From JACPSX01 sp035288405 [NCBI: bacterium] (GTDB lineage Bacteria > JACPSX01), in contig DATEAK010000278.1 of the NCBI GenBank assembly GCA_035288405.1, positions 1 through 8,276 of the forward strand: a stretch of DNA of 8,276 nt. Direction: 5' to 3'. The notes below the pieces were generated by a model. The model had not been told where the DNA came from, did no database searches, and saw nothing but the letters and a program-made list of their open reading frames with translations. Made by a program: the position numbers and the translations under genes. This document shows positions 398-6,246 of the stretch, piece after piece (the stretch's first letter is position 1; each line of letters begins with the position of its first letter).

Positions 398-1204
398 TTA
401 CGAAAACCTCACGCTTGAACCGAGATCGGCGGAGAGATCTCTGGCGAGATCGATGAGGTCCCTCTGGAAGAGTTTCGCAGTCTTGTAACGATAGCTTGGA
501 CATACAATCGCCACACTGCCGATCACTTGGTCCTTGTGGTCGAAAATCGGGCTCGCCATGGCCCAAGTTTCGGTTGCTCTCTCGCCTTTGCTGACGGTGA
601 GAAAATGCTTTTGTATCTGACGGATCTCTTCCTTCAATGCCCGGGATGTACTGATCGTCGTGTCGGTTAAGGGTTTGAGGGGGCGGGAGAGGAGTTCTTT
701 TAGAAGCTTCCCATCCAGGAACGCCGTGATTACTTTTCCCGCCGCCCCATAGGGGAGAGGGATCGACTGGCCTACGTTGATGTGGGTGCGCACCACCCGT
801 GAGGGGTGTTCGACAGCCAGGACAATCCTCGTCAATCCGTTCAGCATGGAGAGCACGACTGTCTCGGTGCACTTGTCCCGGAGATTCCGGATTCGCTCCG
901 GGCTGAGTTTCAGGAGGCTCACATTCCTTAGGTAAGAGGAGGCCCAGGGGAGCACCTTGGGGCCCAGTGTATACCCTTCCAGTCCTCCGTTCTGTGCAGC
1001 CAGACCTTCCTCCTTCATGAACGTAAGGAGACGAAACAGGGAAGGTTTATTGATCTTGAGCTTTGCGCTGGCTTCCCTGAGCGTGACTGGACGCTCGCCG
1101 CTGGCAAGAAGATCAATCATCCTCACGAATCGCGCTAAAGTTCTAGGTTGCATTTTTTGAAACGTCATTTTAATTTTGGACTCTAAGGGAAACAACCTTT
1201 CCAT
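398..1204 (-). CDS. IclR-family transcriptional regulator
   Basis: At 268 residues this is a full-length IclR regulator (usual size about 250-270). Residues 19-70 form the winged helix-turn-helix (LARFVRMIDLLASGE, then a recognition helix near KPSLFRLLTFMKEEGLA), and residues 95-265 form the effector-binding domain. Family landmarks include GQSIPL...GAAGKVITAF (145-162), and GERATETWAMASPIFD (207-222) followed by the IGSVAIVCP strand. The start is uncertain: ATG codons at 1204, 1168 and 1153 are all in frame and none has a good Shine-Dalgarno site. The 1153 start (MQPRTLARF) is close to the usual family N terminus and would fit a promoter overlapping the 1204 start. The gene is divergent from the cupin pair and 11 bases upstream of hyuB, so it probably controls one or both. 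The effector is unknown, though relatives often sense aromatic or small organic acids. Confidence 0.92.
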   Translation of the reverse strand: MERLFPLESKIKMTFQKMQPRTLARFVRMIDLLASGERPVTLREASAKLKINKPSLFRLLTFMKEEGLAAQNGGLEGYTLGPKVLPWASSYLRNVSLLKLSPERIRNLRDKCTETVVLSMLNGLTRIVLAVEHPSRVVRTHINVGQSIPLPYGAAGKVITAFLDGKLLKELLSRPLKPLTDTTISTSRALKEEIRQIQKHFLTVSKGERATETWAMASPIFDHKDQVIGSVAIVCPSYRYKTAKLFQRDLIDLARDLSADLGSSVRFS

Positions 1205-1479: not shown

Positions 1480-1485
1480 AGGAGG
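1480..1485 (+). promoter_or_regulatory. Ribosome binding site that sets the first cupin start
   Basis: AGGAGG lies exactly 6 bases before ATG 1492, the optimal distance. It touches ATG 1486 directly and lies 54 bases downstream of ATG 1426, both also in frame, so 1492 is the start used. Confidence 0.85.
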
Positions 1486-1491
1486 ATGTCC

Positions 1492-2166
1492 ATGGCAAAG
1501 CGGAAGACGGCACGGAAAGCGACGGTGCGGAAGACGAAGACCCGGTCTGCGCCGGCTCGAAGCTCGCGCCCGGCAAAGCCGGTTCGGAAAAAGACCGTCT
1601 CGAAAAAAACAGCCCCAAAGAAAATGACCCCGAAGAAGACGGCTTCGAAAAAAACAGCTCCAAAAAAGACGGTGAAATCGAGTGTCAAGGATGAGAGTTT
1701 GTACGATCAATTGTGCCAGTATTTCCGCGACATGCTGCACCGGGCGGAGAACGGAAAGGTTCACCTGAAGGCCAAGGAAATCCCCTGGGAGCGCAACCGC
1801 CACGCCCTCTTGCGCTACTACCTCCACCCCCTGATCAAGGACACGTGCCTGCCCACGATGCAGGTCTTTGAAAACGTAATTTCACAGCATGGCGGTATGC
1901 ACCGCCACCAGGGGGGAGTCGTTATCTTTGTTATGGAGGGGAGGGGTTACTCTCTGGTCGATGGTCAGAGGTACGATTGGGAAGCGGGGGATCTCCTTCT
2001 TCTGCCCATGAAGCCTGGCGGCGTGGATCACCAGCACTTTAACTTGGAGCCCGACAAGCCCTCTCGCTGGCTGGCCTTCATTTCCAATTCCTTCCGCGAG
2101 CACACGGGCTACGAGATCGTCCAGGTACAGGAATCGCCCGAGTGGAAAGGGGTCAACCGAGCCTAA
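1492..2166 (+). CDS. Cupin protein with a histone-H1-like lysine-rich N-terminal tail
   Basis: The product has 224 residues. Residues 1-66 are a disordered-looking basic tail: 20 Lys, 7 Arg and no acidic residue, with Ala, Pro, Thr, Ser and Val filling the rest, and six five-residue KKTxx repeats at 33-62. Residues 68-130 are a pre-cupin segment with PWE.N (98-102) and YLHP..KDTC (110-119), both conserved in the next gene. The cupin barrel spans about 130-200: HRH at 137-139 (motif 1) and P-G-G-V-D-H180-Q-H-F-N184, a perfect motif 2. The motif 1 glutamate is replaced by a hydrophobic residue, leaving a three-histidine metal site. Such tails in other bacterial proteins (AlgP, Hc1, some topoisomerases) bind nucleic acid; here that role is inferred. 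The enzyme reaction is not identifiable. A gap of 61 bases separates it from the paralogue downstream. Confidence 0.9.
   Translation: MAKRKTARKATVRKTKTRSAPARSSRPAKPVRKKTVSKKTAPKKMTPKKTASKKTAPKKTVKSSVKDESLYDQLCQYFRDMLHRAENGKVHLKAKEIPWERNRHALLRYYLHPLIKDTCLPTMQVFENVISQHGGMHRHQGGVVIFVMEGRGYSLVDGQRYDWEAGDLLLLPMKPGGVDHQHFNLEPDKPSRWLAFISNSFREHTGYEIVQVQESPEWKGVNRA
1588..1677 (+). repeat. Six imperfect 15-base coding repeats (KKTxx)
   Basis: Six in-frame 15-base units encode KKTVS, KKTAP, KKMTP, KKTAS, KKTAP and KKTVK, residues 33-62 of the first cupin. The units differ at wobble positions, and the two KKTAP copies lie 45 bases apart and are nearly identical. This looks like tandem expansion followed by drift. 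The coding strand is almost all purine at the Lys codons and contains two A7 runs (1603-1609 and 1648-1654). Confidence 0.85.
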
Positions 2167-2227: not shown

Positions 2228-2710
2228 ATGGAAATGAGAACACCGAATAATCTGATGGACGAGCTGTTCGCCATGCGGAATGAATTTCGGGAAAGGAACC
2301 GTACGGGGCTCAAGGTCGTCAAAGGCAGAGATCTCCCCTGGGAATGCAATGCGCAGGGCAAGATCAAATGGTACGTGCACCCGCGCAAGACCGACACGTG
2401 CTCGAAGAGCTTCGTCCTCTATGTGCAGGAGATTCCGCCCGGCAGCCGCACGGGAAAGCAGCGCCATCCGGGCGGCGTCGCCCATGTGGTCTTGAGCGGC
2501 CGCATGGTGGCCGTCGTGGATGGGAAGCGCTACGAATGCGAGACCGGAGACTGCATCGCCCTGCCCATCAAACATCGGGGAGTGGAGTACCAGTTCTTTA
2601 ACCCGGACCCCAACGTCCCCTGCGAGTTCATCGCCGGGTCTCCCAACTTCTACGACGTCCTGGGAATGGATATGGGCTCGGAGTTCGAGCAGTTGGAAGA
2701 AGCGCCTTAG
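2228..2710 (+). CDS. Tail-less cupin paralogue with degenerate metal site
   Basis: The product has 160 residues. ATG 2228 is chosen because AGAGGG (2216-2221) lies 6 bases upstream; a TTG at 2183 would only add an unsupported extension. It aligns along its length with the cupin part of the preceding gene: PWECN (37-41), YVHP..TDTC (49-58), GGV (82-84), GDCIALPIK (108-115) and FFNPDP (123-128). It has no basic tail. At the metal positions Gln78 and Tyr121 replace the first motif 1 histidine and the motif 2 histidine; only His80 remains. A catalytic metal site of the usual kind is therefore unlikely. It may be a structural or regulatory partner of the first cupin, a ligand-binding protein, or an enzyme with altered chemistry. 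No substrate can be inferred. The gene ends 47 bases from the convergent xdhC, with no clear terminator between. Confidence 0.9.
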   Translation: MEMRTPNNLMDELFAMRNEFRERNRTGLKVVKGRDLPWECNAQGKIKWYVHPRKTDTCSKSFVLYVQEIPPGSRTGKQRHPGGVAHVVLSGRMVAVVDGKRYECETGDCIALPIKHRGVEYQFFNPDPNVPCEFIAGSPNFYDVLGMDMGSEFEQLEEAP

Positions 2711-4081: not shown

Positions 4082-4714
4082 TCAAGTTTGCGGCGGTTGG
4101 AGAAGCCTGCGGTATTCCTCTGGGGTATCGACGTCCAGCAGGATTCCCTCTCCCTCCACGGGAACTTCCAAAATCTCCTCGGGACGCGCCCGCAAGACCT
4201 GGCGGAGGCCGACTTCTTTCGAGGCAGCGAGCATCTCCGCTTTCAGGCTTAAGTCGAAGAGAACGGGATGTCCCCTTCTGCCGGAGCTGACGGGGATGAT
4301 AATGCGTTTCTCTGTGCTTCCGAAGGCTGCAATGAGCATTGTGACGACCTCGGTGGAAATGCCGGGTTGATCTGCAAGTCCGATAAGGACTGCTCGAGCT
4401 CTGGGGCTGATCTCTTGCAAGCCCCTCTGGATCGATGATCCCATCCCTTCCACGAATTGCTCGTTCAGGACGATCTTCACCGGATAAGCGGCAAGGATTT
4501 TTTGGACTTCTTCGGCTCTGTATCCGACCACCGCAATGACTTCTGAGACGGCTGGATGAAGGAGTGGAGCCAGTGCCCATTCCACGAGTGTTTTTCCTCG
4601 AAAGGGGAGCAATTGTTTCAGTTCCCCCATGCGGGTTGCCTGTCCGGCGGCCAGCAGAATGGCGGAGATAAATACAGTCTGGCGGTCTTCCGACATGGAG
4701 CCTCCGTCTATCAT
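4082..4714 (-). CDS. mocA: MocA-type molybdenum cofactor cytidylyltransferase
   Basis: The 210-residue product is a full-length nucleotidyltransferase of the MobA/MocA group. It has the nucleotide-binding loop LLAAGQATRMG (20-30), Lys33 in KQLLPF, the GMGSS segment (90-94), LADQPG (113-118), GRRGHPVLF (145-153) and DVDTPEEY (194-201). ADQP together with RGHPVLF points to MocA, which joins CMP to molybdopterin for xanthine-oxidase-family enzymes, rather than MobA, which uses GTP. ATG 4714 overlaps the stop of the AOR-like gene (ATGA), implying translational coupling. ATG 4696 is the alternative, giving 204 residues, with GGAGG only 4 bases upstream. The overlap ties this enzyme to the UbiD and AOR-like genes, which is odd because classical AOR uses a non-nucleotide bis-pterin tungsten cofactor. 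Confidence 0.9.
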   Translation of the reverse strand: MIDGGSMSEDRQTVFISAILLAAGQATRMGELKQLLPFRGKTLVEWALAPLLHPAVSEVIAVVGYRAEEVQKILAAYPVKIVLNEQFVEGMGSSIQRGLQEISPRARAVLIGLADQPGISTEVVTMLIAAFGSTEKRIIIPVSSGRRGHPVLFDLSLKAEMLAASKEVGLRQVLRARPEEILEVPVEGEGILLDVDTPEEYRRLLQPPQT

Positions 4715-6246
4715 CCCTTTCGATCCTTGAGGATTCGGCGAACCTCTTCCTCCAAGCGGGCGATTCTTTGACTGACCGCCAGTCCTTCCCCGACTGAAAA
4801 ATCTTCCCAGCCGGTAGCGGCTCCCAGGGCGCGCGCCAGGAGATCCTCAATTTCCGGGACTCCTTCGGCGGCGAACTGGCAAACCCCGCAGCAGTCAATC
4901 CATGAAACGAAAAGATCCCTGGGGAAAAAAAACTCTCTCCCGGTTGAAGCGGCCAGGGGAAGAGGAATTTGAGGTGCCGGTATCTCTTCTTCGGAAGAAA
5001 GAGCATCGTTTGGCTGGGGAAAGGGGGGAGTGGGGAAACGTTCCGGGTGGGCAAGCAGAAAATCGAGTAGCTCCAATGCGGATGAGAGATCTCCCATGCG
5101 GGGTTGACTTCCTCCCAGATCAGAGCCTGGGACCTCTCCGCGCTGAAATTTCTGCAGAAGGTCCGCAATCTCTTCGACGGCGCGCGAAGGTTGCCAGCCG
5201 ATTTCCTCGCAGTAATCCGTGAGGGCCAGGGCAGCCGCAGGATCCACGATTCCGAAGCGTTCCGTTTCTCCTTCGAGGCATTTGCTCCCGCCTCCCATAC
5301 GCACGACTGTGCCCTGGAGGGGTCCCGAGGTGATTGTAGCCTGAAAGGAGCAGGCAATCTCGCAATTGAACGAGGAAAATGGGTTGACCTTCCAGGTTGG
5401 AGCAGCGGAGATCAGAGCCTCAACTTGAGGGGAAATGGGGATTCCAGGGTCGTTCAATGTCTCGTGGATTTCCCGGCGAAGGAAGCCTGCATCTTTCAGC
5501 AGTCTTCCCTTGGGTGGGTGACCTGGACCGGGGTCCTGGAAAAGCCGCCGGGACCAGAGACTCGCAACTTCCTGAAGCATTTGCGGCTGGGCCGTTTCGG
5601 GGCGGGTGGAACCGCGGACACTGATGGCCTTGATATTTTTTTGCCCCAGAAGGGCTCCTACGCTGCCTCGACTGACCCCGTAATGTTGATCGTTCTTCAC
5701 GAGCGCCTCTGGAAATCCGCGTTCCCCGGCAGGTCCGATGGTGAGGACGCTCATCTCCTCGGAAGAACCACCGAGTTCTCGTAACACCAGCCGCTCCGTT
5801 TCTCGTGTCCCTTTTCCCCAGAGATGTTTCGCATCCCGGAAGCGGCAGTTTCCTTCAGGGGAAATTTCCAAGAAGACGGGGCGGGGTGCCTGCCCCACCA
5901 GGATGAGACCATCATACCCGGAGAATTTCAAACGCGGTCCCCAGTATCCATGAGAATGACCGATGGCCGGCCGCAGGCCGGCGCTGGAGTCAACGCTCAC
6001 CAGAGAAAAGTCGGCCGAACTGGGAACCGGGGTGCCTGTGAGGGTTCCGGTCATGAAGATGACGGGGAGGTTGCTCGGGGTGAGCGGTAATCCCGTGCGG
6101 AGAAGATAGTCTTTGAGAAAGTGCAGAGCGAGCCCGCTCCCTCCGAGGTAGAGGCGTAGTTCCCTGTCTGCGGGCAGCGCAAGGGCTTCCGCGCCGAGAT
6201 GGGTCAAATCGAGACGGAGAATCTTCCCTGCGTAACTGTTGGACAA
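4711..6246 (-). CDS. Shortened aldehyde:ferredoxin oxidoreductase-like protein
   Basis: The first 210 residues are a good AOR N-terminal domain: GKILRLDLT (7-15), FMTGTLTGTPVPSS (64-77), GYWGPRLKFSGYDGLI (100-115), HLWGKGTRETE (141-151), IGPAGE (170-175) and VGALLGQKNIKAI (196-208). The rest is unusual. The cluster motif C-x2-C-x3-C is S292-F-N-C295-E-I-A-C299, so the first cysteine is serine; the distal cysteine survives in DCCGVC (Cys456). About 40 residues are missing between Cys299 and Cys456, and the protein stops soon after the GEGLAVSQRI helix, so it is 511 residues instead of about 600. The start is TTG 6246, with AAGGGGGG 8 bases before it; ATG 6254 is out of frame. Classical AOR oxidises aldehydes to acids using tungstopterin, a [4Fe-4S] cluster and ferredoxin; whether this one is active is uncertain. 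It sits 38 bases after ubiD and overlaps mocA. Confidence 0.85.
   Translation of the reverse strand: MSNSYAGKILRLDLTHLGAEALALPADRELRLYLGGSGLALHFLKDYLLRTGLPLTPSNLPVIFMTGTLTGTPVPSSADFSLVSVDSSAGLRPAIGHSHGYWGPRLKFSGYDGLILVGQAPRPVFLEISPEGNCRFRDAKHLWGKGTRETERLVLRELGGSSEEMSVLTIGPAGERGFPEALVKNDQHYGVSRGSVGALLGQKNIKAISVRGSTRPETAQPQMLQEVASLWSRRLFQDPGPGHPPKGRLLKDAGFLRREIHETLNDPGIPISPQVEALISAAPTWKVNPFSSFNCEIACSFQATITSGPLQGTVVRMGGGSKCLEGETERFGIVDPAAALALTDYCEEIGWQPSRAVEEIADLLQKFQRGEVPGSDLGGSQPRMGDLSSALELLDFLLAHPERFPTPPFPQPNDALSSEEEIPAPQIPLPLAASTGREFFFPRDLFVSWIDCCGVCQFAAEGVPEIEDLLARALGAATGWEDFSVGEGLAVSQRIARLEEEVRRILKDRKG

Follow-up and report, generated by a model that had tools for sequence, protein, structure and literature searches.

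Gentisate and salicylate 1,2-dioxygenases (3bu7, 2phd) are bicupins with a three-histidine metal site in one cupin and a degenerate second cupin. Hydroquinone 1,2-dioxygenase is a heterotetramer of two different cupin subunits, one of which has a working metal site, and 5-nitrosalicylate dioxygenase (5NSDO, 8ch4) is a monocupin with no second cupin (PMC10306065). Here we consider a stretch of 8,276 nucleotides from JACPSX01 sp035288405 (contig DATEAK010000278.1; this whole stretch is called the window below), in which an ATG at position 1492 of the plus strand opens a 224-residue frame, P0001, encoding a cupin preceded by a lysine-rich tail, while the next gene encodes a second, degenerate cupin, P0002. 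By analogy with the systems described below, the tail might serve as a nonspecific polyanion tether for what would be the metal-binding subunit of a bicupin that resembles gentisate/salicylate dioxygenases and is split over two genes, a reading to which we give about an even chance.

The window pair shares with the gentisate and salicylate dioxygenases the cupin fold, the three-histidine site in one cupin and the degenerate second cupin, and differs from them in being encoded by two genes, in having Ile145 at the place of the essential Arg127 of salicylate dioxygenase and in the 66-residue N-terminal tail; from 5NSDO it differs in having P0002. The two-subunit, one-working-site layout of hydroquinone 1,2-dioxygenase resembles, by description, the one proposed here for P0001 and P0002. 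We know of no tail of this kind on hydroquinone 1,2-dioxygenase.

Flexible lysine-rich tails are described on other proteins. In Dps, flexible lysine-rich N-terminal segments contribute to DNA binding (PMC2588596), and Deinococcus grandis Dps binds DNA mainly via its flexible N-terminal tails, as examined with a variant from which residues 1–46 had been removed (PMC13319912). AlgP and PhaF have KPAA tails that are known or believed to bind DNA and to position granules; H1-like tails thus also serve to anchor cargo other than the chromosome to the nucleoid (PMC9239181). These tails, as well as those of the Hc2 type, are disordered and lysine-rich like that of P0001, but in AlgP and PhaF they are C-terminal, longer (154 residues in AlgP) and attached to granule proteins rather than to a cupin (PMC9239181). 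The likeness to Dps lies in an oligomeric iron protein with lysine-rich flexible N-termini and no separate DNA-binding domain, although Dps protects DNA rather than degrading a compound and is not homologous to P0001. Dps has a ferritin fold, whereas P0001 is a cupin, and the comparison is confined to the way of working. The parts and the principle are hence known, while their combination was not met in the literature searched: no lysine-tailed cupin was found there, subscription papers being mostly out of reach.

Composition and start site of the tail

Residues 1–66 of P0001 (1492–1689, plus strand) contain 20 lysines and 7 arginines and not a single aspartate or glutamate, in agreement with the count given in the first-pass annotation of the window. 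In a reference pool that comprises seven further proteins or domains encoded by the window, the cupin core of P0001 itself among them, the share of Lys and Arg is 11.7% and that of Asp and Glu, 12.4%. Against this composition, the binomial probability of at least 27 basic residues is 1.6e-9 and that of no acidic residue in 66 positions, 1.6e-4; both values are rough, as the stretch was chosen for its oddness. The maximum number of Lys and Arg in any 66-residue stretch of the seven proteins or domains is 15, and none of their stretches of this length contains Lys or Arg while being free of acidic residues.

Six KKTxx repeats had also been announced. There are indeed six five-residue units at residues 33–62 (KKTVS, KKTAP, KKMTP, KKTAS, KKTAP and KKTVK), encoded by six 15-nucleotide units at 1588–1677 of the plus strand, but five of them have KKT and one has KKM. 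Tandem Repeats Finder (TRF) reports an array at 1603–1667 with the period of 15, 4.3 copies and 70% matches.

The calculated charge of the tail at pH 7 is +26.5, compared to -2.4 for the cupin core and -1.2 for P0002; thus, nearly all net charge sits in the tail, whose isoelectric point is 12. In the AlphaFold2 model of P0001 there is no secondary structure before residue 70, and the block-mean pLDDT (predicted local distance difference test) is 45–61 for residues 1–60, compared to 90–98 for residues 71–200, which form a confident cupin. The tail is therefore predicted to be disordered. A strong polycation without acidic residues could also bind anionic membrane lipids or the cell envelope instead of nucleic acid, but the tail has no hydrophobic or amphipathic segment (grand average of hydropathy, GRAVY, -1.37), no predicted helix and, by eye, no signal-peptide-like core, and we consider such binding highly improbable.

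The tail had been called histone-H1-like, which holds for its composition; the match to the HC2 family (PF07382) is 19.8 bits, under the cut-off of 40, and that to the NCBIfam HC2 model is 11.7 bits with the cut-off of 135. Judged by these matches, the resemblance to Hc2 and H1 is one of composition.

The ATG at 1492 is preceded at a distance of 6 nucleotides by the ribosome-binding site AGGAGG (1480–1485, plus strand), so that the earlier claim of a strong site placing the tail within the frame stands. The in-frame ATG 1486 follows AGGAGG with no spacer at all and makes a less suitable start. Alternatively, the protein could begin at GTG 1672 (residue 61) or TTG 1699 (residue 70), near the starts of the homologues, and the tail would not be made. 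GTG 1672 lies near the aligned start of the nearest relative (VKSSVKDESLY in P0001; that relative, 69% identical, begins MSSSSYAGRNLY), and TTG 1699 has a short ribosome-site match, AAGGA, 7 nucleotides upstream, of a class common to many homologue starts. However, GTG 1672 has no ribosome-site match by a simple rule (nor do the other downstream in-frame starts, GTG 1525, ATG 1624 and TTG 1711), TTG is a weak start, the frame is open across the entire tail, and the AGGAGG before ATG 1492 is perfect. A tail-less product is very unlikely in our estimate; the strong start site favours the tail being made in this copy.

The cupin core and the adjacent cupin gene

The rest of P0001 (1690–2163, plus strand) is a catalytic-type cupin domain (Cupin_2, 37.2 bits, cut-off 27.2). 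Its best sequence matches among solved structures are of the gentisate/salicylate dioxygenase and 5NSDO group, gentisate dioxygenase 3bu7 matching with E 4.4e-17 and four other structures near E 1e-7; the match to NF049978 is 34.4 bits, far under the cut-off of 650. Three putative metal ligands, H137 (1900–1902), H139 (1906–1908) and H180 (2029–2031), are invariant in all 32 rows of the alignment A1, as is the motif HxHQG, and the glycine that follows is nearly so. By sequence relationship and fold, the core is a three-histidine cupin related to gentisate/salicylate 1,2-dioxygenases. When the P0001 model was used by itself in a fold search, numerous cupins scored alike at about Z 12–14, and hence the fold says that the protein is a cupin, not which enzyme it is; gentisate and salicylate dioxygenases were present in the Foldseek list and were not among the best 50 rows of the Z-scored search.

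A small-molecule sensor or regulator, offered as an option in the first-pass annotation, was rejected as the main interpretation of P0001. The AraC_binding match (29.6 bits) reflects the cupin fold, the Pfam domain listing for P0001 contains no helix-turn-helix, and the proteins most similar to it are bicupins with a relationship to ring-cleaving dioxygenases. A PHROGs search returned no family.

The gene downstream (2228–2710, plus strand) encodes P0002 (160 residues; Cupin_2, 41.7 bits), which retains at most one of the three metal histidines: glutamine occupies the position of H137 and tyrosine, that of H180. The closest relative found (L056/L085, genome G670) is a single 346-residue bicupin without the tail, 69% identical to P0001 over the core, and the C-terminal half of this fused protein is 80% identical to P0002. 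Thus, the window pair is the two-gene form of that bicupin, P0002 is proposed as the partner of P0001, and the "small metal-type cupin" of the initial description can be specified as the metal-binding one of two bicupin halves, the second being encoded by the adjacent gene. The two-gene arrangement is also found in L086 and several other relatives. The AlphaFold2 model of L085 is a bicupin (predicted template modelling score, pTM, 0.83) that matches salicylate dioxygenase 2phd_B with Z 22.0 (283 aligned residues, 4.8 A), many other bicupins tying with it. Since MncA (Z 23.8) and oxalate decarboxylase (Z 23.6) score higher than 2phd_B, the fold does not name the reaction.

The separation of the two cupins bears on one more explanation of the tail, namely, that it acts within the complex, contacting the mildly acidic partner or other enzymes of the pathway and aiding assembly, as do the flexible N-terminal segments that join 5NSDO tetramers. 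A new joining element may help where cupins 1 and 2, fused in the nearest relative, are separate chains, and the separate-gene pair L086 has a short basic N-terminus (9 Lys and Arg in 19 residues). On the other hand, other separate-gene pairs (for example, L022, L027, L043, L060 and L067) have just short N-termini of mixed charge, the charge of P0002 is merely -1.2, and the N-terminal helix of P0001 (residues 70–87) already belongs to the core in the AlphaFold2 model. We regard a role in assembly as quite unlikely.

Two side observations concern the bicupins themselves. In L066 and L070 the degenerate cupin comes first and the metal-site cupin (HRHQGG) second, which is the reverse of the order in L085. 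The genome of L001 (G001, Chloroflexi metagenome-assembled genome JACQUA010000134.1, 6.5 Mb) has 71 matches to the P0001 cupin at E<=0.001, among them tandem pairs and fused bicupins, some of the matches being two halves of one bicupin; there are 19 matches in G002 and 28, at E<=1e-15, in G305. These counts point to a very large expansion of the cupin family in some Chloroflexi; in the literature, we found nothing on cupin expansion in Dehalococcoidia.

The tail in relatives and points against a tether

Several observations weigh against a polyanion tether, and the first of them is the distribution of the tail. The 88 loci collected contain 55 distinct homologues at E<=1e-34, and no comparable tail was seen in their 54 readable N-termini; with an enlarged set of loci, a screen at E<=1e-20, in which second cupins and incomplete sequences were counted as well, likewise revealed no tail like that of P0001 in 117 distinct homologues. 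Hence, conservation gives no support for function. In 50 of the 55 homologues the start scored by its ribosome site precedes the conserved core by 7–20 residues. The other five are L042 with no scored site, L066 and L070, where the metal-site cupin is second in the chain, L076, which is masked, and L084 with scored starts at -6, -61 and -87. Tail-less homologues starting near residue 67 in close relatives had been named beforehand as evidence against the tail; such starts are indeed the rule among these homologues, but the nearest of them is only 69% identical to P0001 and the ribosome site still favours the tail in the window.

The N-termini of the homologues are short and often of mixed charge (for example, MVERxxERKREPEP or MRERERER). 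The most basic one, in L086, reads MRDGGRKRVRKKLKRELQA and has two acidic residues besides its basic ones. A rule demanding 20 residues free of Asp and Glu with 33% Lys and Arg flagged two of the 55 open frames. In L068 the flagged stretch is rich in Arg and Ser and lies upstream of a start that is common to relatives and has a better ribosome site; in L070 it comprises 21 residues at a large distance upstream of the cupin, which occupies the second place in that chain. A similar rule (25 residues, 30% Lys and Arg, no acidic residues) flagged three of the 117 homologues (L066, L068 and L084), with 2–3 lysines each. The stretches of all four loci are read as upstream frame, not as tails like that of P0001.

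These counts depend on the sampling. In total, 1461 genomes were counted, several of them repeatedly; relatives closer than 69% identity are missing from the sample, and in the large genome runs at most the best 7–20 candidates per genome were scored, so that tailed copies may be missed. Full P0001 was matched in 5 of 301 genomes (E<=1e-40), 1 of 297 (E<=1e-30), 12 of 35 (E<=1e-25), 4 of 16 (E<=1e-35), 4 of 148 (E<=1e-48) and 7 of 393 (E<=1e-38). A search of genome contigs with exact short peptides, a method that misses many, gave 12 loci, and a plasmid search gave ten distant cupins (27–51% identity), all aligning from query residue 96 or later. There was no match to P0001 in viral contigs, nor, at E<=1e-30 in a search without a positive control, in 43 genomes of the phylum of G307. 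Within this sample, a ring-cleaving-type bicupin whose metal-binding subunit bears a lysine-rich tail is a real, odd and so far single observation.

The second point is found in the repeat units. Adjacent units differ in 25 codon comparisons at 6 first, 5 second and 15 third positions, and so high a number at the third position, 15 of 26, would have P = 0.009 if all three positions shared the differences equally, random synonymous choice giving a mean of 15.1. It follows that the KK[T/M] part was kept while the DNA drifted, whereas the other two places of the unit vary. This bias lends weak support to translation of the tail and to selection on its amino acids, but the test is weak, given that the KK[T/M] motif itself served to fix the register and the numbers are small; moreover, the 20 differing codons are divided evenly between 10 synonymous and 10 nonsynonymous changes. 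The codons of the tail also match the usage of the window worse than those of the core (mean log probability -1.22 and -0.94, respectively, with the core in the reference set), which may reflect a small sample or a later origin.

Both points are consistent with the tail being translated yet having no selected role: a lineage-specific extension of lysine-rich repeats, tolerated as disordered and placed before the folded domain. The tail is lacking even in the 69% identical relative, and half of the codon differences between units alter the amino acid. At the same time, the absence of acidic residues from all 66 positions and the third-position bias look maintained, and a neutral lysine-rich stretch would be expected to gain acidic residues and stop codons. 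We therefore hold such an extension to be unlikely, although to be reckoned with; a lysine-rich tail that serves assembly, or nothing, could still account for what is seen.

The third point concerns the enzyme. Salicylate dioxygenase has an essential active-site arginine, Arg127, located six residues after the second histidine, while 5NSDO likewise lacks an equivalent of it (PMC10306065). Hence, the arginine defines the gentisate and salicylate dioxygenases proper, not the wider group. In P0001 the equivalent position (H139+6) is I145, all 32 rows of A1 have Ile (25) or Leu (7) there, and the alignment of L085 with 3bu7 pairs Ile with Arg. P0001 thus stands near the gentisate/salicylate family, and even ring cleavage is an uncertain assignment for it. 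The invariant HxHQG together with Ile or Leu at the arginine place suggests a distinct subfamily.

Genomic setting and the proposed role of the tail

Upstream of P0001, the left edge of the window contains the start of a hydantoinase B gene, followed by a divergent IclR-family regulator (398–1204, minus strand; IclR_C 100.7 bits, HTH_IclR 32.9 bits), which by its position is a possible regulator of the cupin pair. A weak sigma-70-like promoter match (9 of 12 consensus positions) lies at 1344–1372 of the plus strand; the consensus scan found two sites compared to 0.5 expected in shuffles, which is no evidence of function. Downstream, the minus strand encodes XdhC-, MocA/MobA-, aldehyde-ferredoxin-oxidoreductase- and UbiD-like proteins, and then the start of a DUF885-like gene is found on the plus strand (23.4 bits, under the cut-off of 32.4). 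This setting would fit the breakdown of aromatic or heterocyclic compounds. The oxidoreductase-like frame (4711–6246, minus strand, 511 residues) has the full N-terminal domain and a fragmentary AFOR_C domain (42.9 bits in two stretches); adjoining the XdhC- and MocA-like genes, it might represent a member of the aldehyde ferredoxin oxidoreductase (AOR) family that has diverged or been shortened.

The compared loci are mostly 1–4 kb long, with short flanks. Relatives of the window hydantoinase B adjoin cupins in L066 and L070 (42–43% identity) and in L086 (27%), and UbiD-like stretches (22–31% identity) are present in seven loci (L004, L023, L045, L046, L050, L054 and L055). The IclR, XdhC, MobA, AOR and DUF885-like proteins of the window have no match at E<=1e-8 in these loci. 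Thus, by gene content, a part of the setting recurs beside cupins. Of the 35 genomes in the order of G670, 30 encode a relative of the window UbiD at 58–64% identity and five encode one at 33–47%, whereas the remaining 113 genomes of the same class contain no match at E<=1e-60; by this distribution, the lineage of the window may lie near that order.

A borrowed histone gene was considered as the source of the tail and rejected: the tail alone, used as a query, had no match at E<=1e-4 in the 35 genomes. This result shows little, as the search had no positive control and the handling of low complexity may hide matches. The HC2 family, searched for in the same genomes, had three matches, all of them under the cut-off (in the controls, one of 14 genomes, Corynebacterium glutamicum, had a match, also under the cut-off). 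One of the three, L118, is an 88-residue frame with an internal stop. The other two are hemerythrin-domain proteins (PF01814, 64.9 and 64.4 bits) from two genomes of the order (L119, 1087–1719; L120, 1003–1632), whose C-terminal tails are H1-like, being rich in Lys, Arg, Ser and Ala. As in P0001, a metal-site domain is joined to a basic tail with a sub-cutoff HC2 match; the fold and the end of the protein that carries the tail are different, and kinship of the sequences is not implied. H1-like tail grafts hence occur in the neighbourhood of the order of the closest relative.

Given the parallels with Dps, AlgP and PhaF and the tailed hemerythrins, polyanion tethering is ranked first among the readings. 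The P0001 gene would encode the metal-binding subunit within a two-gene gentisate/salicylate-dioxygenase-like bicupin, P0002 pairing with it to give an active enzyme, and the lineage would have added a disordered polycationic tail of about 60 residues to the N-terminus of this subunit. The assembled oligomer would then display several tails together, allowing for many-site, sequence-independent binding of a polyanion. This might keep the enzyme, to some benefit, at the nucleoid or within a body rich in polyanions, in the way that the lysine-rich N-termini of Dps act. The tethering to DNA, RNA or polyphosphate suggested in the first-pass annotation would, by analogy with Dps, AlgP and PhaF, take this form.

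A bolder picture, which we put forward tentatively and regard as doubtful, is that of a catabolic ring-cleaving-type cupin residing on the nucleoid, or on RNA or polyphosphate, via a histone-like tail, as one case of a wider grafting of H1-like tails onto metal-site proteins, the cupin here and the hemerythrins of L119 and L120, in little-known bacterial lineages. If the tail binds polyanions, it would be a simple route to locate a metabolic enzyme at the chromosome, or within a condensate, with no dedicated DNA-binding domain. Vice versa, if the tail is neutral, it would cleanly illustrate the origin and loss of H1-like tails.
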